Source of the DNA: Phycisphaerales bacterium
GTDB taxonomy: Bacteria; Planctomycetota; Phycisphaerae; Phycisphaerales; SM1A02
NCBI GenBank assembly: GCA_029260575.1
Contig: JAJDDB010000027.1
Coordinates: forward strand, 622,501 to 686,500
DNA: 64,000 bases
Direction: 5' to 3'
Part shown: in pieces, positions 2,312 through 52,026 of the stretch
How the letters are laid out: every line of letters starts with the position of its first letter
Numbering within the stretch: the stretch's first letter is position 1
Made by a program: the position numbers and the translations under genes
Notes under the pieces: generated by a model
The model's input: only the letters and a program-made list of their open reading frames with translations
Database searches by the model: none
What the model was told of the DNA's origin: nothing

Positions 2312-2526
2312 GGCATTGCTCCTGTGCATGTGTCGCGCGGTAGTGCGTGCAGGTTCCCCTAAGCGTGACATTGCATGCATCATGCGTTGCCTGCTCAAGT
2401 ATGTATTGTCAGCGACACAACCGGGTTTGATCAAGCACTTTGCAACAAATACCGAGAAACGCTGCAAATAAAGCGTCTGCGGTCATGATCCGGTCATGTT
2501 TGGATCATGACCCGCGAATAAACGCG

Positions 2527-9310: not shown

Positions 9311-9586
9311 CCACCACTCGCAGGCTGCGGGACAACCGGGCCCAATGACCCGCCGCTGGCTCCTCGCCGAGCACCCGAGAGGCCGGGAAATCGGCAAAGA
9401 GGGCAGAATATGGACCAGCACCCCCGCTGGCAACCGACTCCGTGCCGGGATTCACAATGTCCCGATACCGATCAACCCCGAGAAAGCAATTCCTTCTGAC
9501 CAAATCAGGCGGTGAGCAGGCTCACAAACGAGCCGCGACCGTGAGGCAGCGGGAAGCGCCCACGCAAACACGCCGAACCCGCTTCC
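9311..9586. other. Intergenic region upstream of nuoJ
   Basis: 276 bp between nuoJ and the next minus-strand gene. It must carry the nuoJ-N promoter unless transcription reads through from upstream. I see no convincing -35/-10 pair, riboswitch or terminator hairpin in it. Confidence 0.4.
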
Positions 9587-10300: not shown

Positions 10301-10971
10301 GCCGATTGCCTCCGCAATACGCGACCGCACTCGGTGCAGACAGCACTTTCCCCAACCGGATACGCGCACTTCGCACACAACCCCCGCCGCATGCGCCGCC
10401 AGCGTCGCAGCGCGAACGGTGTAGCGAAGAGCAGCCAGAGGATCACTGCGTAGAGAATTGTGTTGATGGCAAAGCCGGGCCAGATCGGTTGTAGCGGGTA
10501 AGTTCCACGGTTCGTGCGGAGCGTCCAGCAGTACTCTCGGTCGAGATCGACTCTCAACAGAGATGCGCCGGTCATTGCATCAAATGGCCACCCACACTTG
10601 ACCATTGTTATGTTCGGACCAAGCCACACAGCATCATCAGTTGCTGCAATAGTGTGAAAGTGATACCCAGTATCATGAAACTCGAACGCAGTGCCAAATC
10701 GAGTCACCTGCCCCGTATCTGCGTCGAACGCTTCAACCCATCGCCATTCTGAAGAGGAAACATCAACGTAGGGGCCGAGTATTCGACCAACAGGGCTGCC
10801 GAACGAATCAAAAACCGGCGAAACTAGCGTCAAACCGGCTGTGAATACGCACCCCCACGCTACCGCGACGTTCACCACCGCGCCCAGCAGTAGGAACACA
10901 ACTGCGCGCACCAACCATCGGCGAACACCCCGCCGCCGCGCGTGCGTCTTCGATGCACCTGCGTCCGTCAT
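10297..10971 (-). CDS. Membrane protein with C-terminal zinc ribbon (paralogue B)
   Basis: A 224-residue protein starting at the ATG at 10971; a GTG one codon earlier is an alternative, and no clear Shine-Dalgarno sequence separates them. It shares with its neighbour the helix VVFLLLGAVVNVAVAWG almost letter for letter, the PLQPIWPGFA..NT entry into the second helix, and the ribbon CAKCAYPVGESAVCTECG. The central extracytoplasmic domain has diverged strongly. The two genes overlap by 4 bp and look like a tandem duplication with conserved ends. Function is unknown; a sensor or assembly role is guesswork. Confidence 0.75.
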   Translation of the reverse strand: MTDAGASKTHARRRGVRRWLVRAVVFLLLGAVVNVAVAWGCVFTAGLTLVSPVFDSFGSPVGRILGPYVDVSSSEWRWVEAFDADTGQVTRFGTAFEFHDTGYHFHTIAATDDAVWLGPNITMVKCGWPFDAMTGASLLRVDLDREYCWTLRTNRGTYPLQPIWPGFAINTILYAVILWLLFATPFALRRWRRMRRGLCAKCAYPVGESAVCTECGRVLRRQSA

Positions 10972-10986
10972 CACCGCAATTGTACA

Positions 10987-11934
10987 TCACGCTGCATCCA
11001 CACCCGTTGCAGGCGTCCACAGCTCCTTGGATCGACCCCCGGATGGTCCGGCCCGCACAACGTTTGACGGCACACCCGGCTTTGTTCGCGCTTCTCCGGG
11101 AACTGCCACCATCACCCGCGCCAGGTCCGTGAAGTTCGGCATCTCAAACGGCGCCACCGGCAAATACTTCGTCACACCCGCAACCACCACACAGATATGC
11201 TTGCCCTGCCCATACCGAAACGCCCGCTGCATGGCCGCCAGTGACGCGCGCGGCTGCCGCGCACGGTTCGTACGCTTCTTCTTCGCTGATTTCTCGCCCT
11301 CTGCAAGTGGCGCCAACTCCGGCAGCACCACCTCTTTATACTCTTCGCCCGGCTGCAAACCGAACACCTCACGCTGCTCGCGCATCAACCCGCCGCGCGT
11401 ACACTTCGGATACCGCAGCGGCTCGTGCCTGCCGCGAGGCGTCCTGCCCACCCAGAAAATATGCACCCGCCCCTTCCGCCGCGAACCGTGCCGCGCTGCG
11501 ATCGCTTCGAAACCGCATGCATTCCAGAACTCGTTCGCTTCAATATCCTGTGCGCACCACAAGCCAATGAGTCGGATTCCGGGGGCCATGTGGTCTATAA
11601 AGTGCTGCACCAGCGCTGTTCCCATCAGTCGCCTGCGAGCATCGTACGACACTGCTGCCTGATATATAATCCCAAAGTGCGGATCGCGCAGGTAATTACC
11701 CTTGCCTAACAAATACGCTGCAGGTTCATCGTTCTCCAGCGCGATTGATACATTCGCACGCTCAATATTTGCCTGCAGCGCCACCGTCGGCAGGAACCCC
11801 ACCTGGTTCGAATACTTCTTCTGCAGCGAATCCAGAAACGCCAAGTCCTTAGCTCCGGGAATCGCACTGCGAATCGAAACACACTTGTGCTCACTCTCGG
11901 GCAATGCTGCCAACTGCTGTGCTGTGCGAATCAT
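10987..11934 (-). CDS. GNAT-family acetyltransferase-like protein
   Basis: A 315-residue protein. The ATG at 11934 is preceded by GGAG with six-base spacing. The N-terminal ~170 residues have a GNAT layout: KCVSIRSAIPGAKDLAFLDSL, a strand with EPAAYLLGKG, then QAAVSYDARRRLMGTALVQHFI as the acetyl-CoA-binding loop and helix (a degenerate R/Q-x-x-G-x-A site, RRLMGTAL), and LWCAQDIEANEFWNACGFEA, typical of the GNAT C-terminal strand/helix. The ~140-residue C-terminal part is basic (KKKRTNRARQPRAS) and not recognised. It may mediate nucleic-acid or substrate binding. The acceptor substrate is unknown. Confidence 0.6.
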   Translation of the reverse strand: MIRTAQQLAALPESEHKCVSIRSAIPGAKDLAFLDSLQKKYSNQVGFLPTVALQANIERANVSIALENDEPAAYLLGKGNYLRDPHFGIIYQAAVSYDARRRLMGTALVQHFIDHMAPGIRLIGLWCAQDIEANEFWNACGFEAIAARHGSRRKGRVHIFWVGRTPRGRHEPLRYPKCTRGGLMREQREVFGLQPGEEYKEVVLPELAPLAEGEKSAKKKRTNRARQPRASLAAMQRAFRYGQGKHICVVVAGVTKYLPVAPFEMPNFTDLARVMVAVPGEARTKPGVPSNVVRAGPSGGRSKELWTPATGVDAA

Positions 11935-11956
11935 CGCTCGCTCCAATCAAAGAAGA

Positions 11957-11980
11957 ATTCACCACAGAGAACACGGAGCC
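11957..11980. repeat. Dispersed short motif, ACCACAGAGAACACGGAG type
   Basis: The bases ACCACAGAGAACACGGAG resemble a short intergenic sequence (consensus like ACCGCAGAGACGCAGAG) seen scattered in many environmental bacterial genomes. A related copy is at 63951-63990 in the opposite orientation. It sits directly in front of the inverted repeat at 11990. Confidence 0.4.
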
Positions 11981-11989
11981 AAACTCCCA

Positions 11990-12070
11990 TCACTCCCGCG
12001 CAGGCGGGAGTCCAGTCGATGCGCGGTCGGCCAATGTGCCATCACTGGATTCCTGCCTCCGCAGGAATGA
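11990..12070. repeat. Dispersed palindromic repeat (PRRRESS/ITPAQAGVQ type)
   Basis: Two 27-bp arms form an imperfect inverted repeat: 11990-12016 (TCACTCCCGCGCAGGCGGGA, continuing GTCCAGT) and 12044-12070, whose complement reads TCATTCCTGCGGAGGCAGGA then ATCCAGT. A 27-bp centre separates them. Read in one frame it gives the string LPSLPRRRESS, in another ITPAQAGVQS. These are known by-products of a widespread REP-like repeat that is often mis-annotated as protein. It lies in the promoter region of the GNAT gene. Confidence 0.8.
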
Positions 12071-12119
12071 CAAATAACACAACTGTCCGGCTGTTTGGCT
12101 TTCACAGCATCGGCCAACT

Positions 12120-12443
12120 TCATACCACCGGAAAATCACTGAACGCATCCGCTGCCGTTCCGGGGGCACTCATCGCCATCACATCAAACGGCGGCGGCGC
12201 ATAGTTCACTACATTCGCGCCGAACTGCGCGCCCGTAGGCGCGCCGTTCAGCACTACTGCATCGTCCGCTGCCGACGCTTCCGTCGCGATGTACTGCGTG
12301 TTCCCGAACCGCCACGTCCAGTTCGCTGCATTCAGCGGCCCCGCCGCCAGCAACCGATCAAACGTCACGGCCAACTGCTGCTTGCCGGAATCAAACACCG
12401 CGTTCACGGGAACCGGTGCATTAAGGAAACGCAGGCACGGCAT
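12120..12443 (-). pseudogene. C-terminal part of a frameshifted gene
   Basis: About 107 residues from an ATG at 12443, in the frame shifted relative to the upstream reading frame that stops at 12421. The text NAPVPVNAVFDSGKQQLAV then TFDRLLAAGPLNAANWTWRF reads as beta-strand-rich, genuine coding sequence. It continues the theme of the upstream half, which ends GTYAVPAF. No Shine-Dalgarno sequence precedes the ATG. The simplest reading is one ancestral gene (12120-12780) broken by a single-base indel near 12425-12440, either real or an assembly error. A programmed shift or two coupled genes cannot be excluded. Confidence 0.55.
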
Positions 12444-12780
12444 ACGTACCGGCCGGGACAAATCCCCCCGCCGCGGTCCGTATACCGGGATCTCCTTCCG
12501 GCACGACCATGTTGCTCCCCTGCACATCGCCCGTGAACACCAGCTCCACCACCGTGTCGCTGATCTGCGTCGCGCTCGTGACTGTCTCGCCGCCACCTGA
12601 ACCTGCGGTAAAGCCGGGCGTCTTGTTCGGAAGCATACTGTTGCCGAAACTGATGCGAATAGTGTCTGCGGCTTCTGCGGTGATTCCGCTGATCACTGCA
12701 GGCGTGATGATCTTCGGCACCGATGGATCAAACGTACGTCGATTGCGCCCACTTGCGCGCGTTGAACTTCGTGCTGTCAT
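12421..12780 (-). CDS. Uncharacterised beta-rich protein, N-terminal part of a frameshifted gene
   Basis: 119 residues from an ATG preceded by AGGAG with nine-base spacing. It reads FDPSVPKIITPAVISGITAE and then VTSATQISDTVVELVFTGDV, an Ig-like or adhesin-like beta pattern, and stops at TAA just as homologous-looking sequence resumes in another frame (see 12120-12443). The neighbour at 12829, 48 bp upstream, is also uncharacterised and beta-rich at its C-terminus, so the two may form a structural pair. No signal peptide is visible. A phage tail or fibre origin is possible but not demonstrable here. Confidence 0.5.
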   Translation of the reverse strand: MTARSSTRASGRNRRTFDPSVPKIITPAVISGITAEAADTIRISFGNSMLPNKTPGFTAGSGGGETVTSATQISDTVVELVFTGDVQGSNMVVPEGDPGIRTAAGGFVPAGTYAVPAFP

Positions 12781-12828
12781 TGTCAGAATCTCCTAGTCTG
12801 GTCGTTATAAATTCTTGTTGCGCCGCGC

Positions 12829-13587
12829 TTACGCTGCAATCTGCAACTGATCTTCGCCGCCTTCCAACTGTGTGCCGCCTGTGGGAATCTGCTGATCCAC
12901 CGGACCACCGAACGCAATCGTCATCGCCACTGGAAGACTCCACGGACCGAACAGCCCGGTTCGCGTCACCCAACGGCCGAAGTACGATGCAGTCTTGCCG
13001 ACATCCATCGGGTCCTGCTCCACATTGACTGGCTGCTTCGTGAACAAGCCCACCAACTCCGAATCATCCGGGTTGGGGTTCGCTGCTGCATCAACCGTTC
13101 GATTGAGTTGCAGCTGAATCACGCCGTGCGGTTTCTTGCGCGATGCAGGCGTGTTCTCATCTGCATACCGAATCTCGTGCTCGCCGCTGAACGCGCCCTT
13201 GATCACCAGCATTGGTGCGCTGCTCGGCGCAGGAATCGGCGACCGTGTCGGATCGTTGACATGAATCCCCAGCGCAGTCTTGTCTTCGTTGTCCACGCCC
13301 TGATTTGTCTTGATGATCTGTGCATATACACGCACCGAGGCTACCGCTGAGGCGCGCACCGCATCTTTCTGCGCGATCGTGGACACATTGCGCGTCGTCG
13401 GCGTTTGCACGGTGTCAAACGCTGCTGCGTATGCGGTGTAGTGATTTGCAATGATTGTCGCATCTCCTGCGCCGAGTCCGTACCGGGCAGAGTCCGCTGA
13501 AATCAACGTTGAGAAGTTCAAAAGCCAGCTCTTGAACGCCCAATCGGTCGCGGGAATATATGAATCGCTTTGTTGTACTGCAGGCAT
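12829..13587 (-). CDS. Conserved uncharacterised protein, helical N-terminus and Fn3-like C-terminus
   Basis: 252 residues. The ATG at 13587 (MPAVQQSDSYIPATD) has AGGAG seven bases upstream; the longer frame upstream lacks such a signal. Residues ~1-125 are helical and Ala-rich (DWAFKSWLLNFSTLISADSA, then QKDAVRASAVASVRVYAQII). The rest is beta-rich and ends with ASYFGRWVTRTGLFGPWSLP, reminiscent of the last strands of a fibronectin type III domain. I recall similar proteins as conserved hypotheticals in many bacteria, but no function is established. It is probably transcribed with the damaged gene at 12120-12780. Confidence 0.6.
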   Translation of the reverse strand: MPAVQQSDSYIPATDWAFKSWLLNFSTLISADSARYGLGAGDATIIANHYTAYAAAFDTVQTPTTRNVSTIAQKDAVRASAVASVRVYAQIIKTNQGVDNEDKTALGIHVNDPTRSPIPAPSSAPMLVIKGAFSGEHEIRYADENTPASRKKPHGVIQLQLNRTVDAAANPNPDDSELVGLFTKQPVNVEQDPMDVGKTASYFGRWVTRTGLFGPWSLPVAMTIAFGGPVDQQIPTGGTQLEGGEDQLQIAA

Positions 13588-13870
13588 TGGAGCACTCCTA
13601 CGCTTTGCCTGCGGATGCAGGCGCACGAACATTCCAGGTGCGGGCAACACGCGCTGCCGACACACATCAATCGAATCAACCAGCACCGACCACACAGTCA
13701 GTCCTCGGTCACGCTCTTTCTTTCTGCTCCTTGCAGGCAGTCGCACGGGATTGACCCGGCAGGTCTCCGCCTGTCGCAGTGCGTATTCGGCGGTATCATA
13801 AACTCGCTTCACACATTCTCGTGACTTTCATCGCAAGAATGAATCTAGTGTTAATAGTATTCGGAGCGAC

Positions 13871-15589
13871 GTGGTAGATATGGCACTCTGGGACTGGCTG
13901 CGCGACGAAAACAACCGCGGGATCATCATCATGATCGGCAGCGGCAGTGTCGCCATTTTGGCAGGTTTGTGGGCGCTCTATAAGTTCTCACGTCGAAAGT
14001 CCGACACTGAGAACCCTTCATCAAATACCACAATCACAGCATCGCAAGGCAGCGTAGCAGTCGGAACCATGCACAGCAGTAGCGTCACAGTCGCACCAGG
14101 TCTTAGCGATGTCGAAGTGGATCGAGTTGCTGATCGCATGATTGCGAAACTAGGTTTAGTGGGTCAGTCAGAATCGACCAAAGATCCATGGCTAAGAAAA
14201 GACTTTATCGCTGCAGTACAGCGTCTTGCTCATGATGCCCAGCGCGGCGGCATGACTGCCCAGCGCATCCTTGAACATGAAAATGCCAACGATCTCGTTC
14301 GTTATCTCGACGCTCGGCGAACCAAACTTGATGGCGCTCAGGAGTCGATCAACGAGCGCATCGAGAAGGAAAAAATCGAACTCGACCGCGAATTGGCAGC
14401 TGCCGCATTCATGACCGGGCAGATCGACCAGGCTGAACAAGCCCTGTTCCGCATTCTCGCTACGAATCCAAATGACTGCGCCGCTATCAATGAACTCGGA
14501 CACACCTATCGTCTTCGCGGACATCTCCAAGATGCCGAAGATGCCTATGGCCGTGTGTTTGAGCTTTCGGAAGATGATGAAGTCGGGAAGGCTATAGCCT
14601 CAGCTAATCTCAGCACTGTGCAGCACATCCGCGGCGATCTTGACGGTGCAGAGGCGATGTGCCGCAAAGCGCTGGAGATCAATGAGACTCTCGGACGTCG
14701 CGAAGGCATGGCCAGCGGATACAGCAATCTGGGCATCATCCTTCGGACCCGGGGCGATCTCGATGGCGCCGAGGCGATGCACCGCAAGGCGCTTGAGATT
14801 GATGAAACCCTTGGTCGCCGCAAAGCTATTGCGAGCCACCTCGGCAATCTCGGCCTCGTCATGCAAGCTCGTGGCGATCTCGATGGCGCCGAGACAATGT
14901 ACCGAAAGTCATTGGACATCGAACAAACCCTTGGACGACTCGAAGGAATGGCCGGTGACTACAGCAATCTCGGCGGCATCATGCGGCTCAGGGGCGATCT
15001 CGTCGGTGCGGAGGCAATGCAGCGCAAGGCGCTGGCGATTTACGAACAGCTCGGCAGTCTCGAAGGAATGGCTATTTCGTACGGCAATCTCGGCAATGTA
15101 CTTCTTGTTCAAAAGAATCTCGCCGGTGCCGAAGCAATGTTCAGGAGGGCGCTGGAAATCGATGAGCAACTTGGCTCGCGTGAGGGCATGGCCAACCAGT
15201 ACGGCAATCTCGGTGTCGTGTTGTTCGAACGTCGCGATTTCAACGGCGCCGAGTCGATGCACCGCAAAGCACTGGAGATCGATGAGTCTCTTGGCCGCCC
15301 CGAAGGAATTGCCTGCCACTATGGGAATCTCGGCATCATATCCAGAGCTCGCGGCGATCTTACTGGAGCTGAAGTGATGTACCGCAAAGCGCTCAAAATT
15401 CACGAGCAGATTGGGTCACCTCAAGGCATGGCCCACGACCACGGTAACCTCGGCAGTTTGCTGTTGGCTCTCGGCGATCTCGATGGGGCCCGAACAAATT
15501 TGACCCGAGCCCGCGACCTCTTCGTTAAACTCGGCGCGCCACAATTGGTGGAGAAAACGCAAAAGCTGATTGATGAACTACCGAAGTAA
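13871..15589 (+). CDS. Membrane-anchored TPR repeat protein
   Basis: 572 residues. The start is a GTG with GGAG four bases upstream; an ATG three codons later is the alternative. One N-terminal helix (GIIIMIGSGSVAILAGLWALY) anchors the protein. A Ser/Thr-rich linker and an acidic/basic helical region (residues ~90-190, with ERIEKEKIELDRELAAA) follow. At least eight kinesin-light-chain-like TPRs of exactly 40 residues then run to near the C-terminus (core GDLDGAEAMHRKALEIDE, then YGNLG). The TPRs are most likely cytoplasmic and bind a partner protein. The repeats are almost identical to those of the DUF4062 protein at 1-1373, suggesting shared ancestry or gene conversion. Confidence 0.75.
   Translation: MVDMALWDWLRDENNRGIIIMIGSGSVAILAGLWALYKFSRRKSDTENPSSNTTITASQGSVAVGTMHSSSVTVAPGLSDVEVDRVADRMIAKLGLVGQSESTKDPWLRKDFIAAVQRLAHDAQRGGMTAQRILEHENANDLVRYLDARRTKLDGAQESINERIEKEKIELDRELAAAAFMTGQIDQAEQALFRILATNPNDCAAINELGHTYRLRGHLQDAEDAYGRVFELSEDDEVGKAIASANLSTVQHIRGDLDGAEAMCRKALEINETLGRREGMASGYSNLGIILRTRGDLDGAEAMHRKALEIDETLGRRKAIASHLGNLGLVMQARGDLDGAETMYRKSLDIEQTLGRLEGMAGDYSNLGGIMRLRGDLVGAEAMQRKALAIYEQLGSLEGMAISYGNLGNVLLVQKNLAGAEAMFRRALEIDEQLGSREGMANQYGNLGVVLFERRDFNGAESMHRKALEIDESLGRPEGIACHYGNLGIISRARGDLTGAEVMYRKALKIHEQIGSPQGMAHDHGNLGSLLLALGDLDGARTNLTRARDLFVKLGAPQLVEKTQKLIDELPK
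14581..15540 (+). repeat. 120-bp tandem repeats encoding TPR units
   Basis: Eight units with an exact 120-bp period. The phrase GGCGATCT recurs at 14633, 14753, 14873, 14993, 15353 and 15473, with diverged versions at 15113 and 15233. The exact period and close similarity indicate tandem duplication; copy number may vary between strains. Confidence 0.8.
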
Positions 15590-42155: not shown

Positions 42156-43043
42156 ATGACAGATCTCCGACCGCAACGAATGAAACGCATCAGATGGGTT
42201 GTGCTCTACGGCATCGGTGGGCTGCTCATCACTGTTGCCATCGCTGGGTACGGCGCGTGGATGAGCGACCTCGGCACCGCTGACGTAGTGCAGGTCACAC
42301 CCAGCGAGTGGGATTTTGACGACATCGAATTCACCGTTCTGTGGGATCAGCTGCTCGCAGATCGTTATATTGCTGTTGAAGATACAAGGGCGGATGACGA
42401 GTCTGATTCAATCGTCTCATCTGCCAGTCTTCGGCGCACATCACTCATCATCGACGAAACTGGTCTGTTTGCGCTCGCGGTTGAAACGCAGCGCCTCGCA
42501 AGTGCCGGCCGACTCGGCGAGCTGTACGACGGCCATCCCAACGAAGCACCGCCGCTGCCGTACTGGTTTAAACCTGACGTTGGGTATGACAGCGCGACCG
42601 CAACTCATTGGATGCTGCACCTTGAAGATGCTGCGGGGTGGCCGTTTCGCGCGCTGCGCAGCCGAATGCGGCTCGCACCGATTGCAATGACATCAACCGG
42701 CTCCGATGAGGAATTCTCGTGGTCGATCCCACTCAGCGACCCGAGCAAGATCTGGCAACTCCGCGCGAACACAGCGGCGCAGTTTCGCACGGGGTTGCCC
42801 AATCCTGAGAGCGCCTTCGGCGACTGGACCGCCCTGCCGCTACTGCCCATCTGGCTCGGCATGTTCGCCGACACGATCATCTGGGCGGCCGCGCTTTTTG
42901 CATCGCTCTGGCTTATCCGCCAACCCGCACGTCTGTTCCGCAAGAACATCGGCCACTGCCCTAAATGTAATTACAACCTGCACGGCATCGACAGTAAACG
43001 CTGCCCGGAATGCGGCGCAGCAGTCGTCGCCAACACTACGTGA
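42156..43043 (+). CDS. Membrane protein with C-terminal zinc ribbon (paralogue C)
   Basis: 295 residues from the ATG at 42156; an ATG at 42180 is possible and neither has a strong ribosome site. The architecture matches the genes at 9587 and 10297: an N-terminal helix (WVVLYGIGGLLITVAIAGYG), an extracytoplasmic domain (~200 residues), a second helix introduced by LPLLPIWLGMFADTIIWAAAL, and a C-terminal ribbon CPKCNYNLHGIDSKRCPECG (CxxC-x12-CxxC). It starts 25 bp from the divergent rsmA gene. Its 3' end overlaps the convergent mgtE gene by 8 bp. Function unknown. Confidence 0.75.
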   Translation: MTDLRPQRMKRIRWVVLYGIGGLLITVAIAGYGAWMSDLGTADVVQVTPSEWDFDDIEFTVLWDQLLADRYIAVEDTRADDESDSIVSSASLRRTSLIIDETGLFALAVETQRLASAGRLGELYDGHPNEAPPLPYWFKPDVGYDSATATHWMLHLEDAAGWPFRALRSRMRLAPIAMTSTGSDEEFSWSIPLSDPSKIWQLRANTAAQFRTGLPNPESAFGDWTALPLLPIWLGMFADTIIWAAALFASLWLIRQPARLFRKNIGHCPKCNYNLHGIDSKRCPECGAAVVANTT

Positions 43044-44406
43044 GCTTGTCCAGTGCTGCTGACGCAAGGCTCAATGTCAGAAAGAAACCACACATATCCG
43101 TCACCGTCGTCAGGATCGGCCCCGCTGCCAGTGCCGGGTCCATCTTCATGCGTTTCAGCAGCAACGGCACGACGCCGCCGATCGACACCGCAATCACAGT
43201 GTTGCACGCAAGCGCCAGCCCAACCACGCCGCCCAGCCACGCGTTCCCTTTCCAGAAATACGACACCACGGCGATCAACGAACCGAGCACAAGGCCGTTG
43301 ATAATGCCGACGCTCGCTTCCTTCATCCACACCCAAAGCGCATCAACCGGTTTAATCAGATTCAGCGTCAGCTCGCGCATTGTCACCGCCACCGCCTGGT
43401 TGCCGCTGCAACCGGACATGTCGGAAATGATCGGCAAGAACACAGCTAGCGCAATCACCTGTTCCAGCGTATCCTGATACAGCGCGATCACCGTCGCCGC
43501 CATGATGTTCAGCACAATGTTGACGCTCAACCATGACAACCGCCGGGTGGCGCGCACCCGCACCGGCATGGAGCGCAGTTCCTCGCCGCCGACAATGCCC
43601 TGCGTCTTGAGATGATCGCTGTTGGCCCGGTCAGCCATGGCTTCTTCCACTGCCGAACGCAGCACAATGCCGAGCAGCCGATTCTCCGCATCCACGACAG
43701 GGACACCGAGAAATGCCCGCTCATCAAACAACGCATCCAGATCGTCAAGCGATTCATCATCGCGCACAGTCAGCGGACTGCCGATCATGATCGACGCAAT
43801 CTGTCGATCATCATGTTGGAAAAGCAAGTCGCGCATGCGCAGCACGCCGACAAGCCGCTTCGCTGTATCAGTCACAAACACATACTGCACCTGCATATCT
43901 GCGTACTGTGTCGTGTTCTGGCGAAGCGTGCGCACGACGTCGCCGACGGTATACGTGTCCGGAAACGTCACCGCTTCGGTGATCATCAACCCGCCTGCGG
44001 TGTCTGCCGGGTAGGCTGCAAGTTCGCGCAGACCCCGTGCCGCCTCGGGGGTCATGTGTTCGAGAATGGCCTCAGCCGCATCATCATCAATGGCATTCAG
44101 CAGGTCGGCCTGATCATCGCTCGTGAAACGTTCAAGAATTTCCGCTGCGGTTTCGGGTTCGAGATCATCAACGACTTCCGCGGTCTGCGCATCCGGCAGC
44201 GACCCGAGCAACCACGCAGACTGCTCCGGCCCGAGCAGTTCCACTACAGCCTGACGCTGCTCGTCATCAAGGTGCGCGATCATGCGGGCCGCTTCACCCT
44301 CGGGCAGCTCGGTGATATATGCCCGCAAAGCTTCGGCCTGTTTGTCCGCAACAAGCTCTGCAACCGCTTCCCACGGGCGATCAACAACTATGTCCTGTGT
44401 CGTCAT
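43036..44406 (-). CDS. mgtE: Magnesium transporter MgtE
   Basis: 456 residues from the ATG at 44406; the upstream in-frame extension is basic, low-complexity and unlike MgtE. Order of domains: MgtE N-superhelix (~15-135, with LPEGEAARMIAHLDDEQRQA), tandem CBS domains (~140-265), a linker helix, then five membrane helices. These include FLPIISDMSGCSGNQAVAVT, GIINGLVLGSLIAVVSYF and DPALAAGPILTTVTDMCGFF, whose conserved Asp lines the pore. It is a Mg2+-gated Mg2+ channel of the cytoplasmic membrane; the cytosolic domains sense Mg2+. No M-box leader is visible in the short upstream gap. Confidence 0.93.
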   Translation of the reverse strand: MTTQDIVVDRPWEAVAELVADKQAEALRAYITELPEGEAARMIAHLDDEQRQAVVELLGPEQSAWLLGSLPDAQTAEVVDDLEPETAAEILERFTSDDQADLLNAIDDDAAEAILEHMTPEAARGLRELAAYPADTAGGLMITEAVTFPDTYTVGDVVRTLRQNTTQYADMQVQYVFVTDTAKRLVGVLRMRDLLFQHDDRQIASIMIGSPLTVRDDESLDDLDALFDERAFLGVPVVDAENRLLGIVLRSAVEEAMADRANSDHLKTQGIVGGEELRSMPVRVRATRRLSWLSVNIVLNIMAATVIALYQDTLEQVIALAVFLPIISDMSGCSGNQAVAVTMRELTLNLIKPVDALWVWMKEASVGIINGLVLGSLIAVVSYFWKGNAWLGGVVGLALACNTVIAVSIGGVVPLLLKRMKMDPALAAGPILTTVTDMCGFFLTLSLASAALDKLT

Positions 44407-44470
44407 GCCGACAGCGTACGACCGGAGAGCGTAGAACACCACGGAGCTGGGGGTTTGTTGTGTTCTGTCG

Positions 44471-44926
44471 CTACCAGAATTTCCACCACGGCTTCGAATT
44501 CGTCGGGGTATCCGACTCCGTGGCTCCGTTGGCGATGTTGCGAAGCGCAGCCCGACTTTGCTTATTAGATTCAGCGAATTGAACAAGTGCCCGCCTCGGC
44601 TCCACAACTTCCCCTGACTGCGGGTCGTAGGCAAGTAGGCCTCGTTCAGTATTCCAACGTTGAATACACTGCAATACCTGTTGAAACACAGGTGTGGCTA
44701 CTGAATCATCAATTCCGTAACTGATGTTGATTTCGCAAACATACTGCGTTGCATTGCAACACGCCTGCCCACAAGTTTGTTGTTCAACGTCATTTGCGAA
44801 ATCCTGAAGATCGGGGTCCGCCGCGGCACCGCTTTCGTCCGTCTCGTCACACTCCAGCAATTCATCAATGACTTCATCCGGATTGCGACCTGGAATCGGC
44901 TTGAACACGAATAGGTCGTAACTCAT
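44471..44926 (-). CDS. Uncharacterised soluble protein
   Basis: 151 residues from the ATG at 44926, preceded by a G-rich ribosome site (GGGGGG, four bases away). It begins MSYDLFVFKPIPGRNPDEVI, a phrase I associate with small conserved proteins of unknown function. An acidic segment (ECDETDESGAAADPDLQDF), four Cys in ~20 residues (TCGQACCNATQYVCE) and a polar Lys/Trp-rich end (SKPWWKFW) follow. No signal peptide. It lies 28 bp downstream of efp on the same strand and may be co-transcribed with it. Confidence 0.55.
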   Translation of the reverse strand: MSYDLFVFKPIPGRNPDEVIDELLECDETDESGAAADPDLQDFANDVEQQTCGQACCNATQYVCEINISYGIDDSVATPVFQQVLQCIQRWNTERGLLAYDPQSGEVVEPRRALVQFAESNKQSRAALRNIANGATESDTPTNSKPWWKFW

Positions 44927-44954
44927 GGCACCCCCCGCACAGCGGTGACCGAAT

Positions 44955-45530
44955 CTATGCCTTGCTGAGATATTCACCCGTCGACGGGTTGATCTTCACA
45001 ACCTGGCCGTTCTCTACAAATGGCGGGACACGCACTTTCGCGCCCGTCTCCAGAACCGCTTCCTTGAGTTGGTTCGTCGCAGTTGCGCCCTTGGCCTGCG
45101 GCGCTGTTTCCTGGACTTCAAGTTCAACCGCAGCAGGCAGTTCAATGCCCAGCGGCTTGCCCTGAAACAGAATCACTTTGACCTCGACGTTTTCCTTGAG
45201 CCACTGACTCTGGTCCTGTGGCAGCACATCGTTGTCCACTTCGACCTGCTCGTAGGATTCGTTGTCCATGAAGATGAACGGCCCCTGCCCGTGGCCGGAG
45301 GCGTCATAGAGGTACTGCATCGTTCGATTGTCGATACTGACATCATCGAGCTTGTCAGTGGAATTCAGGCGGTTGGTCTTGATCGTCCCGGTGTCGAGGT
45401 TCTTCATCTTGGCCTGCACATAGGCCGGCCCCTTGCCGGGCTTGACGTGCTCGGTGTCCAGCACGACGTGCAGGGAACCCTCCCACATGATGGCCTGACC
45501 GCGTCTGACATCGTTGGCTTTGATTGGCAT
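44955..45530 (-). CDS. efp: Translation elongation factor P
   Basis: 191 residues from the ATG at 45530 (MPIKANDVRRGQAIMWEG); an ATG three codons earlier is the alternative. The three OB/KOW-like domains of EF-P are seen. The tip loop is HVKPGKGPAYVQ with K33 in the place of the modifiable Lys34 of E. coli. IDNRTMQYLYDASG and a C-terminal ending GAKVRVPPFVENGQVVKINP then STGEY complete the fold. EF-P rescues ribosomes stalled at polyproline. The Lys rather than Arg at the tip implies lysylation or related modification (EpmAB) or use unmodified; no epmA/B is in the window. Confidence 0.93.
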   Translation of the reverse strand: MPIKANDVRRGQAIMWEGSLHVVLDTEHVKPGKGPAYVQAKMKNLDTGTIKTNRLNSTDKLDDVSIDNRTMQYLYDASGHGQGPFIFMDNESYEQVEVDNDVLPQDQSQWLKENVEVKVILFQGKPLGIELPAAVELEVQETAPQAKGATATNQLKEAVLETGAKVRVPPFVENGQVVKINPSTGEYLSKA

Positions 45531-45593
45531 AGGCCGCATATCGTAGCACGCACCAGCGCAAGTCCAAAACCGAACGAACCTGACACCAAAGCC

Positions 45594-46076
45594 ATGCTTA
45601 TCCGCATCCACAAACCGTCCAAATCCGGCAAACAACCCGTCCTCATCTGCACCCGCGCCAACGGCAGCGAAACCCTTGCCCCAGCGACAGTCGGCGTCGA
45701 ACACGACCTCGTCCATTACGCAGTGGAAACCGAACTCGGCCTGAAGCAGTCCTTCTATGCGCTTGTCGCAAGTGGATGGAACATTCAGGATTTCAATGTG
45801 CCCGGCGCGATGAAGAACACCAACCTGCCCGAAGAGGCAGGCCGCACCGAATTCATCATCGGCCTGCTACAGATGGAGCGCCGCAACGGCGAACCATACG
45901 CCGACCTCAACGCTGAGCTTGCAACCATCTGCACCCAGCGCGGGATCACGCCGCCGATTCAGGTGGATGAAGCAGCGCTGCCTCGCATTCGCAAGAAGAT
46001 TGATGAGTTGTGTTACCAGTGGGTGGTAACGCAACCGGGGTCAGTGATGGAGTTGGAGTGGAAAACGCAGAAATGA
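45594..46076 (+). CDS. Uncharacterised conserved protein
   Basis: 160 residues from the ATG at 45594, divergent from efp with 63 bp between the starts. It has no signal peptide or membrane segment, and mixed alpha/beta composition: ILICTRANGSETLAPATVGV-like strands, then helices with EEAGRTEFIIGLLQMERRNG and ALPRIRKKIDELCYQW. I do not recognise a domain. It may be a planctomycete-specific housekeeping protein, judging from its clean coding character; that is inference. Confidence 0.5.
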   Translation: MLIRIHKPSKSGKQPVLICTRANGSETLAPATVGVEHDLVHYAVETELGLKQSFYALVASGWNIQDFNVPGAMKNTNLPEEAGRTEFIIGLLQMERRNGEPYADLNAELATICTQRGITPPIQVDEAALPRIRKKIDELCYQWVVTQPGSVMELEWKTQK

Positions 46077-46106
46077 TGCAGAGTTCGTACGAATCTGCAC
46101 CGAATG

Positions 46107-47069
46107 CTATCGAACGTAATACGCCCAGAATGCCGCGACTTCCCGAGCCATGAACACCGGCATCTTCGTAAGCACATACTTCGGGCGAGCGGGGACGGTA
46201 TACACGGTCAGTCCCGCCTGCTGATACGCCTGTTTAATGCGCGGCAGGTGATAGCCGTGACTGACCACAAGCGCCGAACGAATTTCGTATTGCTCGAAGA
46301 TGTCATTCGACTCGGCAACGGTATCTGCGGTTGTCAGTCCGTTTCGATCCAGCACAAACGCTGTTTCCGGCACACCGAGCGACATGGCATAGTCGCGCAT
46401 CGCTTCGACTTCATGTATATCGCCATCGCCGGGACCGCCGGAGCAGATGATTTGCTGCGCCAGGCCTGCATGGAACAGCTCACATGCTGTACGCATGCGA
46501 TCTTCGAGTGCATCGGACAACCGTCCGTCGGCATATGCCCGCGCGCCGAAGACGACAATCGCATCGGCATTGCGCCGGTAGTCAGTCGTGCCGAAGCACA
46601 CCATCTGCAGCAGCGGAAAAGCCAATATGGTTGCGACAAGCACCGGTGCGCTGACACTGAAACACCGAATGCCGCCCGCTGGTCGGTTGCGATACATCGC
46701 GATGGACACGATTCCAAGCACAACAGCGACGACAAGTGAGAATGGAATAGGCACCGCCAATCGGGTGGTGATCGAGGCGTCTGCCACCAGCCGGTAATAC
46801 ACAATCGCGTTCCAGCAGGCGATCACGAACGCACTCGTGATGAGCGCAACACCAATTCTTCTTCGCCACGCCGATTGAAACGGCCGAATCGCGTAGGCGC
46901 ACAAAGTCAGAGCAGCACCCACCAGCAAAATGAAGAACAGCGGTTTGTCGGGAACACCAATCCACCACCGATTCGGATCAGGAACATCTTTCACGACTCG
47001 AAGGACACAGTTCCACAACGTGAACATACCAAAGAACGCGCACAATCCGCGCGCTATCGAGGTCAGCAT
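46107..47069 (-). CDS. DUF218 (YdcF/SanA/ElyC-like) membrane protein
   Basis: 320 residues. The ATG at 47069 has GGAG seven bases upstream. The frame continues open for another 740 bp through the 21-bp repeat array, but that extension is repeat-derived and unlikely to be translated. Four to five N-terminal helices (residues ~5-150) precede a DUF218 domain: ADAIVVFGARAYADGRLSDA, ICSGGPGDGDIHEVEAM, NGLTTADTVAESNDIF and ALVVSHGYHLPRIKQAY. Family members act in envelope biogenesis, for example ElyC and SanA, with unknown chemistry; the domain probably faces the periplasm. Confidence 0.8.
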   Translation of the reverse strand: MLTSIARGLCAFFGMFTLWNCVLRVVKDVPDPNRWWIGVPDKPLFFILLVGAALTLCAYAIRPFQSAWRRRIGVALITSAFVIACWNAIVYYRLVADASITTRLAVPIPFSLVVAVVLGIVSIAMYRNRPAGGIRCFSVSAPVLVATILAFPLLQMVCFGTTDYRRNADAIVVFGARAYADGRLSDALEDRMRTACELFHAGLAQQIICSGGPGDGDIHEVEAMRDYAMSLGVPETAFVLDRNGLTTADTVAESNDIFEQYEIRSALVVSHGYHLPRIKQAYQQAGLTVYTVPARPKYVLTKMPVFMAREVAAFWAYYVR

Positions 47070-47278
47070 GAGCGAACTCCAATCGAAAGACAAGCGCTCT
47101 TCGACATTGAAGATGTTTTCGCTGCAATTGTGGCGAATGGGTGGTTGAGAATGCCCCGCGTCCACTGGCGCACGGCCTTGAACTGCTGGACGAAGGCTGC
47201 GGGGATCGGCAAAGATGATGCCGTAGCGGACGAAGAACTGATCGTCCGGCTGGGAGTCGATGCCGCTGTGCATTACCC
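47070..47278. other. Spacer between DUF218 gene and 21-bp array
   Basis: About 210 bp without a supported gene. It must hold the promoter of the DUF218 gene at 46107-47069. No transposase remnant or clear hairpin is recognised. Confidence 0.35.
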
Positions 47279-47602
47279 GCATAACGGAACCCTTCCTCCG
47301 CATAACGGAACCCTTCCTCCGCATAACGAAAACTATCGGCGGCATAACGCGGACAGGAGTTTTCGTTATGCCCACCACTGTTTTTGTTATGCGAACGCAC
47401 GGTTTTGTTATGCCGCCGTCTGTTTCCGTTATGTGAACATCTGTTTTCGTTATGCGAACGACAGTTTTCGTTATGCGAACGTATGTTTCCGTTATGCGAA
47501 CGCAAGTTTTCGTTATGCCGTGGTCTGTTTTCGTTATGCGAACACAGCTTTTCGTTATGCCGCCGTCTGGTTTTGTTATGCGAAAGGCCCGTTTCGTTAT
47601 GC
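47279..47602. repeat. 21-bp iteron-like array with orientation switch (16 copies)
   Basis: Four copies of GCATAACG start at 47279, 47300, 47321 and 47342. Then twelve copies of the reverse complement (C/T)GTTATG(C/T) start at 47364, 47385, 47406 and so on every 21 bp to 47595. The spacing is exact within each block, and 22 bp separates the two blocks. Spacers of 13 bp fall mainly into two types, GAAC-N6-TTT and C(C/G)-CCGTCTG-TTT-like, giving an extended TTCG-TTATG-CGAA dyad in many units. The constant octamers stand out against variable spacers, as for protein-binding sites. No gene overlaps it. It is flanked by the DUF218 gene and a small basic protein gene. Confidence 0.85.
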
Positions 47603-47747
47603 CGATGGTCGTTCGGGGGCGTCTGGTGCTGCTGCGGGGCGGTTGTTCTCGGGCTTGCCCGGATTTCCTGCATGATTGGAAAAGTCGCTCAAGTGGGCGC
47701 GACTGCACGTCGATGTCGGGCGAAGTATGTTGCGCCCCTCTCCACCC

Positions 47748-47996
47748 ATGTCCAACACCGAGCGTCAGCGGCAATTCCGCGAGCGCAATCCGGGGTACTA
47801 CCAGCGTCTGCACGCCAAGCGGAAGGCGCAGGTTCAGGCTCTGTGCGAGCAGCTTCTCCGAGACAAGGCCATTGCCGAGATCATGACACCCGCGATGCCG
47901 TTGTGCCTACCGGCACCGGAGCAGGTGACGCAGCCGTGGGTTGAGCAATTGTTGCGCAATGTCGAGTCTCGAGATCGACAGCCCGTCAGCGTGTGA
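47748..47996 (+). CDS. Small basic protein next to the 21-bp array
   Basis: 82 residues from an ATG at 47748. The first half is strongly basic and polar: MSNTERQRQFRERNPGYYQR then LHAKRKAQVQAL; the second half is helical and Pro-containing. I recall similar short proteins (pattern ERQRxFRxRNPGYYxR) in planctomycete genomes but no function. No ribosome site is obvious. It begins 146 bp after the last repeat, reading away from the array, so the array could act as its operator or it could be the array-binding protein. Both ideas are untested. Confidence 0.5.
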   Translation: MSNTERQRQFRERNPGYYQRLHAKRKAQVQALCEQLLRDKAIAEIMTPAMPLCLPAPEQVTQPWVEQLLRNVESRDRQPVSV

Positions 47997-48077
47997 ATTG
48001 ATCAGCGCTCAACAATCGACCTCCGGTTGATCGGCACGCTGAAGCGTGCCGGGCCTGCGGGTGTGTTGAATTGTGTC

Positions 48078-49655
48078 TTATCGCGCTGTTGCTTCGGCCC
48101 GCACTTCTCGAAGGACTGTCACCTTGATCTCGCCGGGGAAGGTCATTTCTTCTTCGACGCGCTTGGCGATGCAGCGGGCGATGTTGAACGCTTCCGCATC
48201 GTCCACCTTCTTGGCATCGATAATCACGCGCACCTCGCGGCCGGCCTGAATGGCGTGCGCTTCGGTGACGCCGGTTTGTTCGGTTGCGATACCTTCGAGT
48301 TGCTCCAGCCGCTTAATGTACATTTCCATCGACTCGCGCCGCGCGCCGGGGCGAGCGCCGCTGAGCGCATCCGCTGCCATAACAATCGGCGTGTATGCAC
48401 TGGTCGCTTCCATATCACCGTGATGCCCGCCGATTGCGTTGAGCACCACTTCGGCTTTCTCGCCGTACTTACGGGCAAACTCCATGCCGATGGCAGGGTG
48501 GCCGCCTTCCATTTCGTGGTCCATTGCCTTGCCGATATCGTGCAGGAAGCCGCACCGCCGGGCAATGTCACCTTTCAAACCAAGTTGATCCGCAATGATC
48601 TGGCTGAGGTACGCAACTTCCACCGAGTGCCGAAGCACGTTCTGGCCGTAGCTCGTGCGAAAGTGCAGCTTGCCCATCGCTTCGACAATCTTGGGGTGCA
48701 GGCCGCGGATGTTGCATTCCATCACTGCGTCATTGCCGGCCTTGATGATGCGCTCCTGCATGTCCTTGCGCACACCTTCGACGATCTCTTCGATGCGCGA
48801 GGGATGCACCCTGCCATCAGCAACCAGCTTCGACAGTGACTCGCCGGCTATCGCTCGACGGATCGGATCAAAGCACGACACCGCAATCACGCCGGGCGTG
48901 TCATCAACGAGAATGTCCACGCCGGTCGCGCGTTCCAGTGCGCGAATGTTGCGGCCCTCGCGGCCGATGATCCTGCCCTTCATGTCATCGGACGGAATCT
49001 TCACCGCCCGGACAGTGGTATCGGCAACGTGATCTGCTGCGAACCGCTGAATCGCCTGCAGCGTTATCTCGCGACTTCTGCTCCGGGCTTCGGTTTCCGC
49101 TTCATCGAGAATTTGCTGTGTGAGGACGTTGGCCTCGTGATCCGCTTCTTCACGGATCTGCTGCAGGAACAGGTCTTTTGCCTGATCCTGCGTCATGCCG
49201 GTCACTCGTTCAAGCTGTTCACGCACGCGGCTGCGGTCTTCCTCCAGCCCTGCATGCACACTCTCGATTTCCTTTTCACGGTTGTTCAGCTTCGATTCCC
49301 GTGAATCGAGTTTGGACTCGCGGTTGGTCAGCGACTTGAGGCTCTGATCCAGTGAATCCTCGCGCTTGGCAAGCCTGGCCTGGGATTCCTTGATCTCCGT
49401 GCGGGCCTCAGCGACTTCCTTCTCCAAGTCTTCGCGGCGCTTTGTTGCGCGCTTTTCAGCTTCCAGCTCAATGCGCTGGCGCGATGCCTCAGCTTCAGTT
49501 TCAGCAGAGCTGGTAATCTGAGCAGCGTCACGTTTGGCCCGGGCGATCGCCCCGCCTGTGAGCACCGTCAGCAGCACCCAGCCAATGGCAACGCCAACGA
49601 CCAGCGTTATTGCGCCGACCATCCATTCATTCAAACCTAGATATATAGAAGTCAC
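48078..49655 (-). CDS. rny: Ribonuclease Y
   Basis: 525 residues in canonical order: an N-terminal helix (MVGAITLVVGVAIGWVLLTV), a long coiled coil (residues ~38-190, Glu/Arg/Lys heptads), a KH domain with GRIIGREGRNIRALERATG, and an HD domain with LRHSVEVAYLSQII and FLHDIGKAMDHEMEGGH. The C-terminal region (TGVTEAHAIQAGREVRVIID) is typical. It is a membrane-tethered endoribonuclease initiating mRNA decay. It is flanked by a 505-bp intergenic region upstream. Confidence 0.94.
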   Translation of the reverse strand: MTSIYLGLNEWMVGAITLVVGVAIGWVLLTVLTGGAIARAKRDAAQITSSAETEAEASRQRIELEAEKRATKRREDLEKEVAEARTEIKESQARLAKREDSLDQSLKSLTNRESKLDSRESKLNNREKEIESVHAGLEEDRSRVREQLERVTGMTQDQAKDLFLQQIREEADHEANVLTQQILDEAETEARSRSREITLQAIQRFAADHVADTTVRAVKIPSDDMKGRIIGREGRNIRALERATGVDILVDDTPGVIAVSCFDPIRRAIAGESLSKLVADGRVHPSRIEEIVEGVRKDMQERIIKAGNDAVMECNIRGLHPKIVEAMGKLHFRTSYGQNVLRHSVEVAYLSQIIADQLGLKGDIARRCGFLHDIGKAMDHEMEGGHPAIGMEFARKYGEKAEVVLNAIGGHHGDMEATSAYTPIVMAADALSGARPGARRESMEMYIKRLEQLEGIATEQTGVTEAHAIQAGREVRVIIDAKKVDDAEAFNIARCIAKRVEEEMTFPGEIKVTVLREVRAEATAR

Positions 49656-50160
49656 TACGGCAACCCTCGTTGGGGATTACCGGCAGTCAGGGGTCGCTAG
49701 GCCGGGTCGTCTTCATGCGACGACACCGAATGTGGGACCGATTCCGAAACTGGGTGCGCTTAGTCCTGCACCGAATTCACTCGACGTCGATCACGCCGAT
49801 GTAATTGAGATTTGGTGCTCTGAGATCCTCACTACTAGATAAAGAAAAACAGAAGAAGCGCTTCGTGAGCTATGAAACTGATGCTCGAACCTATACCCAG
49901 AAACTTCGGAATTCAAACGTTCAATCTATGACCACCCGACTCGTGTCGGAGTTGAATAGATCGCCCGTGTCACACATTCGGAGCGGCGTTTCCGCCACAC
50001 CCCGGCCAGCTGGCTCCATTCGCCGCCGGCACCGGACACAGACCAAATTATTGTCAGAGCTGATTATGATCTGCCCCGGCCATGCGGTCAACAGCCCAAT
50101 CCGCTGCGAAACAGCAATCATCACGGACAACCCTGGCCTTCAGCGGTACTATCCACCGTC
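49656..50160. other. Large intergenic region between divergent rny and ABC-2 permease
   Basis: 505 bp. It holds the hairpin GTCGTC-TTCATGC-GACGAC (49706-49724) near the rny start, in what would be its leader on the minus strand. An A-rich stretch (AGATAAAGAAAAACAGAAGA) lies around 49838-49857. No convincing gene, riboswitch or terminator. Both promoters must lie here. Confidence 0.45.
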
Positions 50161-52026
50161 ATGCCCGCCCTGCTGAACTGGCTTCTACGACTGCTGCCGA
50201 CCAATCCGATATGCATTCGGCTGGTTCAGGGTGGGTCCAGGCGGCTCCGGCACCTCTATATCCGCTCGGGATACCTTGCGGTCATTATCGTCGTCCTGCT
50301 GTTTGTCCTGCTGGATAATGTCAGCACCGGCCAGCTGTCGACCCGTGAACTCGCCACAGGCGGGGCCACGATGTTCCAGCTCATCAGCTACCTGCAGGTG
50401 GGCCTGATCTGCCTGCTCACGCCGGTGTTCATGGCAGGAGCCATCGCCCAGGAAGCGAACCCAAAGACATGGGACATTCTGCTCACTACGCCGATGAACT
50501 CGCTGCAGATTGTCCTTGGCAATCTCTTCGGCCGACTGTTTTTCGTGCTTGCGCTGCTGTTCTCATCATTACCACTGTTTGTAATGACACAATACTTCGG
50601 CGGTGTGCCCGGCGATTCGATCTTCGCCAGTTATGCAATCGCAGCAAGCAGCTCACTGCTTGTCGCCGCCATTGCTGTCACGTTGAGCGTGACCCGCACC
50701 GCAGGCAGACGGGCGGTGTTCGTATTTTATATCTCCGTAGTCATGTATCTGTTCATCACAATCGGACTGGATGCATACCTTCGCCGATTAAACCCGGTGA
50801 CACCTGCGGCGCAGGAATTCTTCACGACCATCATCACGCCGCTGAATCCGTTCCTCGCGCTGGAAGTATTGCTGCAGTCCAACACATATGTCCCGCATGA
50901 TCTGACGGGAACCGGCGCCGGCTGGTTTCAACGTATGTGGCTGACCCGGCCGATCACGACATTCTGCTGGCTGTGCGTCGGCCTGAGTTTGTTCCTGATC
51001 GTCTTTTCAACCGTTCGGCTGCGCGTCATCGGCGCCAAGGTCGGCAAAGTCTCGTGGTTCCAAAAGGTCTTTCACCTCAAGGTCAAAGGCGCGTCGCAGC
51101 GCATCGCCCGCAGCGTCGGCAACAATCCGATTGCATGGCGCGAGGCCAGCGGACGAAGTCGAACCGTTACTGCTGTTCTGAGCCGCTGGGGGTTTGTCGC
51201 CGCAGGGGTTGCCGTGGCCGTTGTTCTTGTTGCGCTGTTTCATCGAGGCACGATGTCGATAGCTGATCTGCGCCTAGCGGTTGCGTCAGTTATGTCCGGC
51301 GAAGTCGTCATCATCGTGCTGGTCGCGCTGAATATGAGCGCGACAGCCGTCAGCCGGGAGCGGGAGGATGGCACACTTGACATTATTCTCACGACGCCGA
51401 TTCAACCCGGGCCGTATATCGCAGGCAAACTGCGTGGTCTTGTGCAGTTCCTGTTACCGATGATTCTTGTGCCGGTGCTGACGATGCTTGTGCTTGCGAT
51501 TTACATCGGCTCCAATGGTTTCGGCGCGGGCAACGTCATGAGTGCGGATTCACATCCTGATCGCAGCGTGACATTCCAGCTACCCGCTGTACTTCCGGAA
51601 GGCGCGATTGCGCTGCCCGTCATGCTCGTTCCATTCGTTGCATTCTGCGTGATGGTGGGCCTGCACTGGTCAATCCGCAGCAAAGGAACGATCACTTCTG
51701 TCGTCGCGGCGGTTGCAGTTGTGCTTGCGGTTGCGGGTGTTTTGAGTATGTGCGCGATCCCCGCCGGTCATGGCGCATCCTGGCTCGGCGGCGCGCTTGC
51801 TTCATTTACGCCGGTGAATCTTGTGTTCGCGCTGGTCTATCCAGCCAGCACAATTCCAAGCGCGCTGGACACCGGCGCAGGAACGAGCACGGTCGGCGGC
51901 AGAGCAAGTCTGGTCGTCGGCGCATTCCTGGCTGCGATTGTGTATTCCGCGCTGGTCTACGCAATGTTTGTGAATATGAAGAACAGTTTCATGATGACCG
52001 TCCGCCGCCTCGCCGGCGCGAGTTGA
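50161..52026 (+). CDS. ABC-2-type transporter permease, internally duplicated
   Basis: 621 residues with about twelve membrane helices in two similar halves. Each half carries the ABC-2 cytoplasmic coupling signature: AQEANPKTWDILLTTPMNSL in the first and SREREDGTLDIILTTPIQPG followed by PYIAGKLRGLVQF in the second. The linker (~residues 285-350) is basic. ABC-2 permeases form the channel of exporters for polysaccharide, drugs or proteins; here one polypeptide could supply both pore halves. No ATPase gene adjoins, so the partner is elsewhere. The ATG at 50161 lacks a clear ribosome site. Substrate unknown. Confidence 0.8.
   Translation: MPALLNWLLRLLPTNPICIRLVQGGSRRLRHLYIRSGYLAVIIVVLLFVLLDNVSTGQLSTRELATGGATMFQLISYLQVGLICLLTPVFMAGAIAQEANPKTWDILLTTPMNSLQIVLGNLFGRLFFVLALLFSSLPLFVMTQYFGGVPGDSIFASYAIAASSSLLVAAIAVTLSVTRTAGRRAVFVFYISVVMYLFITIGLDAYLRRLNPVTPAAQEFFTTIITPLNPFLALEVLLQSNTYVPHDLTGTGAGWFQRMWLTRPITTFCWLCVGLSLFLIVFSTVRLRVIGAKVGKVSWFQKVFHLKVKGASQRIARSVGNNPIAWREASGRSRTVTAVLSRWGFVAAGVAVAVVLVALFHRGTMSIADLRLAVASVMSGEVVIIVLVALNMSATAVSREREDGTLDIILTTPIQPGPYIAGKLRGLVQFLLPMILVPVLTMLVLAIYIGSNGFGAGNVMSADSHPDRSVTFQLPAVLPEGAIALPVMLVPFVAFCVMVGLHWSIRSKGTITSVVAAVAVVLAVAGVLSMCAIPAGHGASWLGGALASFTPVNLVFALVYPASTIPSALDTGAGTSTVGGRASLVVGAFLAAIVYSALVYAMFVNMKNSFMMTVRRLAGAS

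Follow-up and report, generated by a model that had tools for sequence, protein, structure and literature searches.

What kind of element is an array of sixteen octamers on a strict 21-bp lattice, and what reads it? Such an array lies in the window, the 64,000-nucleotide stretch of a Phycisphaerales genome analyzed here. The earlier note had placed four copies of GCATAACG and then twelve of YGTTATGY on this lattice, and all of its positions were borne out. The left, gene-distal arm (47279–47349, minus strand) holds the GCATAACG copies, at 47279, 47300, 47321 and 47342, and is directed away from a small downstream gene. The right, gene-proximal arm (47364–47602, plus strand) holds the twelve YGTTATGY copies, every 21 bp from 47364 to 47595, and is directed at that gene. 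Orientation switches at a dyad between the arms (47350–47363), where no lattice slot is vacant and the word starts on the two sides are 22 bp apart (47343 to 47365). A leader (47603–47726, plus strand) joins the array to the gene.

The word is concentrated in the array: 26 copies of GTTATG or CATAAC occur in the whole window, 16 of them inside these 324 bp. In its own 4.1-Mb genome, the array was the sole match to the pair pattern CGTTATGCN{11,14}CGTTATG (reversed control, 0), and it contained 11 of 11 matches to the extended word TTYCGTTATGC (reversed control, 3). As the extended word has no matches elsewhere in that genome, the array would act locally. Tandem Repeats Finder reported periods of 21, 42, 63 and 84. 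Two neighboring left-arm 21-mers (47279–47320) are identical, so duplication of units also occurs. A search of the region, leader included, gave no sigma-70-type promoter match, which says little for this phylum.

Other repeats were seen in the window. A short dispersed repeat lies between the small gene and rny (48006–48050), with similar copies at C27:696322 and C9:254105 of the same genome. Tandem repeats with a period of 120 bp and 70–73% matches occur at 42–428 and 14629–15039; they are probably coding, with repeats of about 40 aa that we take to be TPR-like.

The small gene (47727–47996, plus strand) has a conserved reading from the ATG at 47748, giving 82 aa (MSNTERQRQFRERNPGYYQRLHAKRKA...LCLPAP...); translation may in fact begin at an in-frame ATG at 47727 (MLRPSPPM...). 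The product belongs to a family of about 80–120 aa with the pattern SNxERQRxFRERNPGYYxRLHxKRKA...LPAP. Members searched against Pfam, NCBIfam and PHROGs matched no family at a credible score. In the PDB, a sequence search with a limit of E 10 gave three matches, to ribosomal proteins and at best E 0.47, and a fold search gave one (E 8.8); neither search yielded a credible relative or a DNA-binding one. Phage records and plasmid records held no match to the protein.

AlphaFold, run with four sequences, gave a helix at residues 3–13, a turn at N14-P15-G16, a helix at 17–46 and no strands (pTM 0.38). Mean pLDDT was 92–94 for residues 1–30, 82 for residues 31–40 and about 49–61 beyond. Residues 1–35 carry a net charge of +5 to +12 in nine of nine members. 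The small protein is predicted to have a basic helical hairpin at its N-terminus.

Phycisphaerae genomes were searched for the array and for the gene. A three-word array pattern matched 6 of 248 genomes, as did its reversed control (five with one match, one with eight). Five were kept: G000, in which the window lies, G131, G026, G104 and G068, from families f1, f4 and f10. Each has many words on an exact 21-bp lattice, leftward words preceding rightward ones. The sixth (G200) was dropped, as it lacks the gene and its three words, close to the end of a contig, are spaced at 20 bp. The small gene stands beside the array in all five genomes; its product begins [ST]NxERQRxFxxRxPxYYxxxH and carries LPAP, with the array just upstream.

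A protein profile search matched 7 of the 248 genomes, namely these five together with G167 and G078. Thus two of the 243 genomes outside the five have the gene, both with a weaker or variant 21-bp array upstream: that of G167 has the same core as the window array, and that of G078 has a mixed core, its GTTAT(G/C) words sharing one orientation. Array and gene are both missing from 241 of the 248 genomes. Counting only arrays of three or more words at 21 bp, their co-occurrence (five with both, none with the array alone, two with the gene alone, 241 with neither) has a Fisher p of 2.8e-9.

A second locus in G026, on contig C18, has the core CGTTTCGC and keeps the divergent layout. An order-wide protein search matched 6 of 301 genomes, one of them noise, and added G612, making nine gene loci, a small number. 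G612 is from the genus of G131, and two flanking genes are common to both, as judged from their N-termini; its array has three words 42 bp apart. Within the order of G026, 4 of 26 genomes matched, G048 among them being noise. The wider class search of 387 genomes with an N-terminal profile gave no extra member above noise. Weak matches in G776 (L062), in G048 (L066) and in the tail of that search at E 0.001–0.02 were rejected as noise. A phylum-wide protein search of 392 genomes matched 4, all from within the class, and missed the members in the second order. In public genome contigs, a protein scan gave three loci, all from Phycisphaerae MAGs and apparently corresponding to G104, G131 and G078.

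Also seen in G026 was a C-terminal remnant of the gene (C46:16867–17007; L068, L077, also L047), which retains LMLPAP..., lacks the N-terminus and has no visible 21-bp array; this remnant (L047/L068) was excluded from the nine loci. Among viral contigs, the first protein scan gave L051 alone, a different protein with an RNPGYY stretch, and a second scan gave no match. Viral matches to the array (L052–L056) were taken as unrelated direct repeats, L052, L053 and L055 being judged on sequence and L054 and L056 on word positions only. L054 is unusual in that CATAAC recurs many times at 7/14-bp spacing, grouped into some twelve clusters (2083–13801); it was likewise taken as unrelated.

Two outward arms were found at seven of the nine gene loci. 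The word and unit statistics that follow exclude G078 and G612, whose arrays lack divergence or contain few exact words. Within 700 bp before the gene, 71 exact six-base words were counted at the seven divergent loci. With the gene drawn to the right, no reverse word stands to the right of a forward one at any of the 7 loci, and the intervals between neighboring exact words of the same orientation are multiples of 21 in 57 of 57 cases, a count free of any grid. Units were also assigned by fitting a 21-bp grid to the span bounded by the outermost words with at most one mismatch, giving 4+12 (left+right) in G000, 10+2 in G131, 8+5 in G026-C50, 7+3 in G026-C18, 4+8 in G104, 5+6 in G068 and 1+4 in G167, whose left arm has one exact word only. 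For these 79 units the pitch is so by construction, and the end units, but not the interior ones, were selected for a good core. The phase offset between arms, modulo 21, is 1, 1, 1, 1, 1, 0 and 1. One phase common to six of seven loci has a chance of about 1.6e-6 under independent phases, although the phases are perhaps not independent because the arrays could have a common ancestor and change by whole units.

Conservation along the unit was uneven. Agreement of the 79 units with the majority of their array was 92–100% in the eight core columns and 47–80% in the other columns. Mean pairwise identity per array was 0.86–0.97 for cores against 0.37–0.62 for spacers, and neighboring units differ on average in 6.4 of 13 spacer columns (72 pairs). 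The logo of 69 units pooled from the CGTTATGC arrays reads yTTyCGTTATGC. The view that the octamer is kept while the spacers vary, put forward in the earlier note from the window array, holds in relatives too. Nor was either of the two outcomes named there as weakening a binding-site reading found: the extended word is not scattered with random phasing (11 of 11 within the array in its own genome, 57 of 57 on the lattice in relatives), and the spacers are far less conserved than the octamers.

In the 600 bp upstream of the gene, 21 was the strongest of the periods 13–39 at nine of nine loci (0.53–0.85). Among overlapping control tiles, 10 of 381 reached at least 0.50, with a top value of 0.59; the weakest loci, G068 (0.53) and G078 (0.57), fall below that top tile, and at G078 period 21 leads narrowly, 0.57 vs 0.56. 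A loose generic 21-bp pattern matched 43 of 337 genomes and is not specific, because its reversed control matched about as many (49, by hand count). The pitch by itself is insufficient, since other 21-bp tandem repeats are common in Phycisphaerae. None of the 26 loci newly fetched with the loose pattern, two known ones aside, has a member of the small-protein family. Repeats of this other kind (L099 1494–1700, L100 1481–1732, L103 1–231) share the period and differ in sequence; they run in one orientation, with spacers that by eye are about as conserved as the rest, and have no family member beside them.

The two complete G026 loci allow core and protein to be compared. Their cores are CGTTATGC and CGTTTCGC, and their N-termini differ by a dN of 0.51. 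The CGTTATGC paralogue differs from its counterparts in G000, G104, G068 and G167 by an N-terminal dN of 0.10–0.24. Over the N-terminal 27 codons these five loci have pairwise dN of 0.09–0.24 and dS of 0.31–1.73 among themselves, and dN of 0.50–0.61 relative to the CGTTTCGC-core paralogue. Whole-gene dN/dS was 0.30–1.44, exceeding 1 in 6 of 36 pairs, with dS near saturation. The N-terminus of G131 has diverged (dN 0.44 to G000), yet its CGTTATGC core is unchanged. Covariation of core and protein is thus a single clear case and imperfect, G131 breaking the simple rule.

The place of the locus differs between genomes. In the window, the 2.56 kb between efp and rny (45516–48077) includes the array, the small gene and a DUF218 (YdcF-like) gene. 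The DUF218 gene (46107–47072, minus strand) adjoins the array, was not found among the neighbors scanned at other loci and is probably a bystander. A search for rny matched 39 of 41 family genomes, the window's own included, and loci were obtained for 30, leaving 29 readable relatives. Thirteen of the 29 have efp directly after rny and on its strand; the gap is 39–160 bp in eleven of them and 559 and 796 bp in the remaining two. For the other 16, efp is absent from the examined stretch, which in three ends within about 200 bp. Judged from this distribution, joined rny and efp are likely, though not certainly, the ancestral state. Elsewhere the scanned neighbors were a carbamoyltransferase (G167), a Y1_Tnp-domain protein (G026-C18), a DUF4174 protein (G026-C50), an amino-acid permease (G104) and a redoxin (G612), as against DUF218 in the window.

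G167 holds a second, 98% identical copy of 368 bp, comprising array, leader and first codons, on C1 near 44 kb, the full locus being at 2.77 Mb; its reading is interrupted by another repeat. In the sequence around it (L155 1626–1993, C1 at about 44.1–44.5 kb), the copy is followed by a run of CGCTCACG-type repeats, within which the first codons appear again 248 bp on. At the CGTTTCGC-core locus, the adjoining Y1_Tnp (IS200-like) domain protein was seen at L071 7279–7812, and 41- and 63-bp repeats lie nearby (L046 2169–2298 and 2840–2957).

Among the closest known systems are plasmid partition sites. According to the sections consulted of a paper on plasmid pSM19035, parS there is an array of non-palindromic 7-bp words, direct and inverted, lying over the promoter of the gene for the small ribbon–helix–helix (RHH) protein omega (ParB) and controlling that gene, and several contiguous words are required (PMC9499535). 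The locus described here resembles it in having an array of non-palindromic words in both orientations at a small-protein gene. As far as those sections go, the pSM19035 words are contiguous and of mixed orientation, whereas here 8-bp words stand every 21 bp in two ordered arms; omega is an RHH protein that works with ParA, whereas the protein here is predicted to be all-helical and has no Pfam match. No RHH or HTH centromere-binding family was found in Pfam, NCBIfam or PHROGs for the members scanned, and the predicted structure consists of helices, with no strands. Phased cis sites at the gene of a putative binder, as in ParABS and ParMRC systems, were found here.

In parC of plasmid R1, phased iterons form two clusters ahead of the par genes, and the small protein ParR binds them in a regular superstructure; its pitch is about 11 bp, its orientation single, ParR is an RHH protein and ParM is actin-like. 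The two clusters of phased sites upstream of a gene are common to both, whereas here the pitch is 21 bp, the arms diverge and no RHH ParR or ParM was seen. Plasmid replication iterons are tandem repeats of about 20–22 bp beside the gene of their binding protein, and the array is similar in its 21-bp repeats beside the gene of a presumed binder. Unlike them, it has divergent arms, an 82-aa protein and no Rep-family match, and it lies on an 808-kb contig with housekeeping genes nearby; no plasmid record encodes the small protein.

Other known arrays were rejected on anatomy. CRISPR arrays have repeats of about 20–50 bp, unique spacers and Cas genes; here the conserved part is about 8 bp and no Cas-type Pfam match was found among the seven neighbors scanned. 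Integron attC sites, with a GTTRRRY core, flank gene cassettes; here T stands at an R position in 97% of the 69 units, and there is no room for a cassette between units. The earlier note had dismissed both. DnaA boxes read TTWTNCACA, and a DnaA-box cluster was rejected as well, the CACA part not being conserved and the paralogue core being GTTTCGC. TIGR arrays, in the sections consulted of their description, have 8–12-nt repeats with variable short spacers of about 9 nt, edge repeats that alternate with loop repeats, and a Tas protein with a Nop domain (PMC12045711). The short repeats and variable short spacers are alike; as far as those sections go, the present array differs in having one word, 13-nt spacers and both strands, with no Nop protein among the seven neighbors scanned.

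We hold, with slightly more confidence than doubt, that the locus is self-contained, the small protein binding the octamers in cis and lining up as two polar filaments ahead of the gene that encodes it. The basic N-terminal hairpin would read an asymmetric word of about 8 bp, (yTTy)CGTTATGC. With the word recurring every two turns on one face of the DNA, protomers would align and associate side by side, and two polar filaments could extend outward from the dyad, one of them towards the gene. The resulting structure may be a nucleoprotein body as compact as those of parC/parS or iteron sites. Because this complex would lie over the region upstream of the gene, its most likely immediate effect would be to regulate expression of that gene. 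From the anatomy and from similar known systems we infer that the binder is this protein and that binding is cooperative and autoregulatory. A partition role would be mere analogy, because no partition ATPase was found among the seven neighbors scanned; a Pfam search of these and the small protein (window 43036–52026) gave no ParA, ParM or TubZ NTPase.

Alternatively, another DNA-binding protein, encoded by the host, could use the array as its operator or loading site, with the small protein acting otherwise in the locus. A conserved phased word upstream of a gene would suit this, the link between protein and DNA is an indirect one and the protein matches no known DNA-binding fold; however, if a general host factor were responsible, arrays should also occur where the gene does not, so that the joint occurrence of array and gene across genera and places, with both missing from 241 of 248 genomes, makes this unlikely, as does the paralogue having its own core. 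Present or past mobility of the locus, with the arrays as its recognition or transfer sites and the protein assisting a recombinase in trans, would explain the differing places, the joined rny and efp of 13 of 29 family relatives, the second copy in G167 and the three family loci in G026, one a remnant and one adjoining the Y1_Tnp-domain protein. It is nonetheless decidedly unlikely, as a recombinase stands beside no more than one locus among the neighbors scanned, and the array, instead of flanking the gene at two ends, is confined to its upstream side.

That the array is a neutral minisatellite accompanying the gene is improbable, despite the identical units at 47279–47320, the higher-order periods of 42, 63 and 84, the abundance in the class of 21-bp repeats and the loose 21-bp pattern matching in about as many genomes when reversed. 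It should be evenly conserved along the unit and run in one orientation, as L099, L100 and L103 do; instead core and exact pitch persist among spacers that have diverged widely, the divergent arms are in register, the same core occurs in different families of the class and the protein is at none of the 26 newly fetched loci. A TIGR-like or CRISPR-like guide-RNA array, with the octamer as processing repeat and the 13-nt spacers as guides, would account for a short repeat with variable spacers of equal length, and in either arm a transcript running outward from the dyad would contain the word in sense orientation. RNA folding z-scores were −4.3 and −6.1, but low folding energy is expected because the arms are inverted. 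With no Nop-domain or Cas-like product among the seven neighbors scanned in Pfam, no Rfam match and a helical register that RNA does not need, this explanation is very improbable. Heptapeptide repeats of a coding gene (21 bp being seven codons) were rejected, with practically no probability left to them: several frames are open through the window array, but relative to the first lattice word none is open in all seven arrays, third positions within the word hardly vary in any frame, and part of each divergent array is inverted.

The proposed binding of the octamers by the small protein can also be placed in a larger picture, which we put forward tentatively and with more doubt than belief. The locus may be a minimal mobile chromosomal two-part system of a new kind, in which a small protein family is paired with a satellite array that renews itself and whose word and protein change together. 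Duplication would drive the turnover of its units, as in a centromeric satellite on a small scale, and the protein would polymerize from the dyad into two polar filaments with no NTPase partner encoded beside it.

Among the titles listed for papers that contain one of the word strings, none concerned such an array, and 'not in print' is meant to reach no further than the literature searches made and the empty family searches. The reading of the array in the earlier note as phased, polar candidate protein-binding sites in an undescribed DNA element is supported by the lattice kept in relatives (57 of 57), with binding still putative. The decisive addition is the adjacent conserved small gene and the recurring divergent layout. 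Recurrence of array and gene in distant relatives points to an undescribed protein-and-binding-site system, and the locus appears to be of the iteron, centromere or operator kind, with a protein family that lacks a credible known relative. If this is right, an undescribed protein family would be added together with its DNA target. The array would be a natural, ruler-like substrate for testing the effects of helix face and polarity on cooperative binding by a protein of about 80 aa, and the paralogues with different words would allow the DNA-reading code to be deciphered by swaps.
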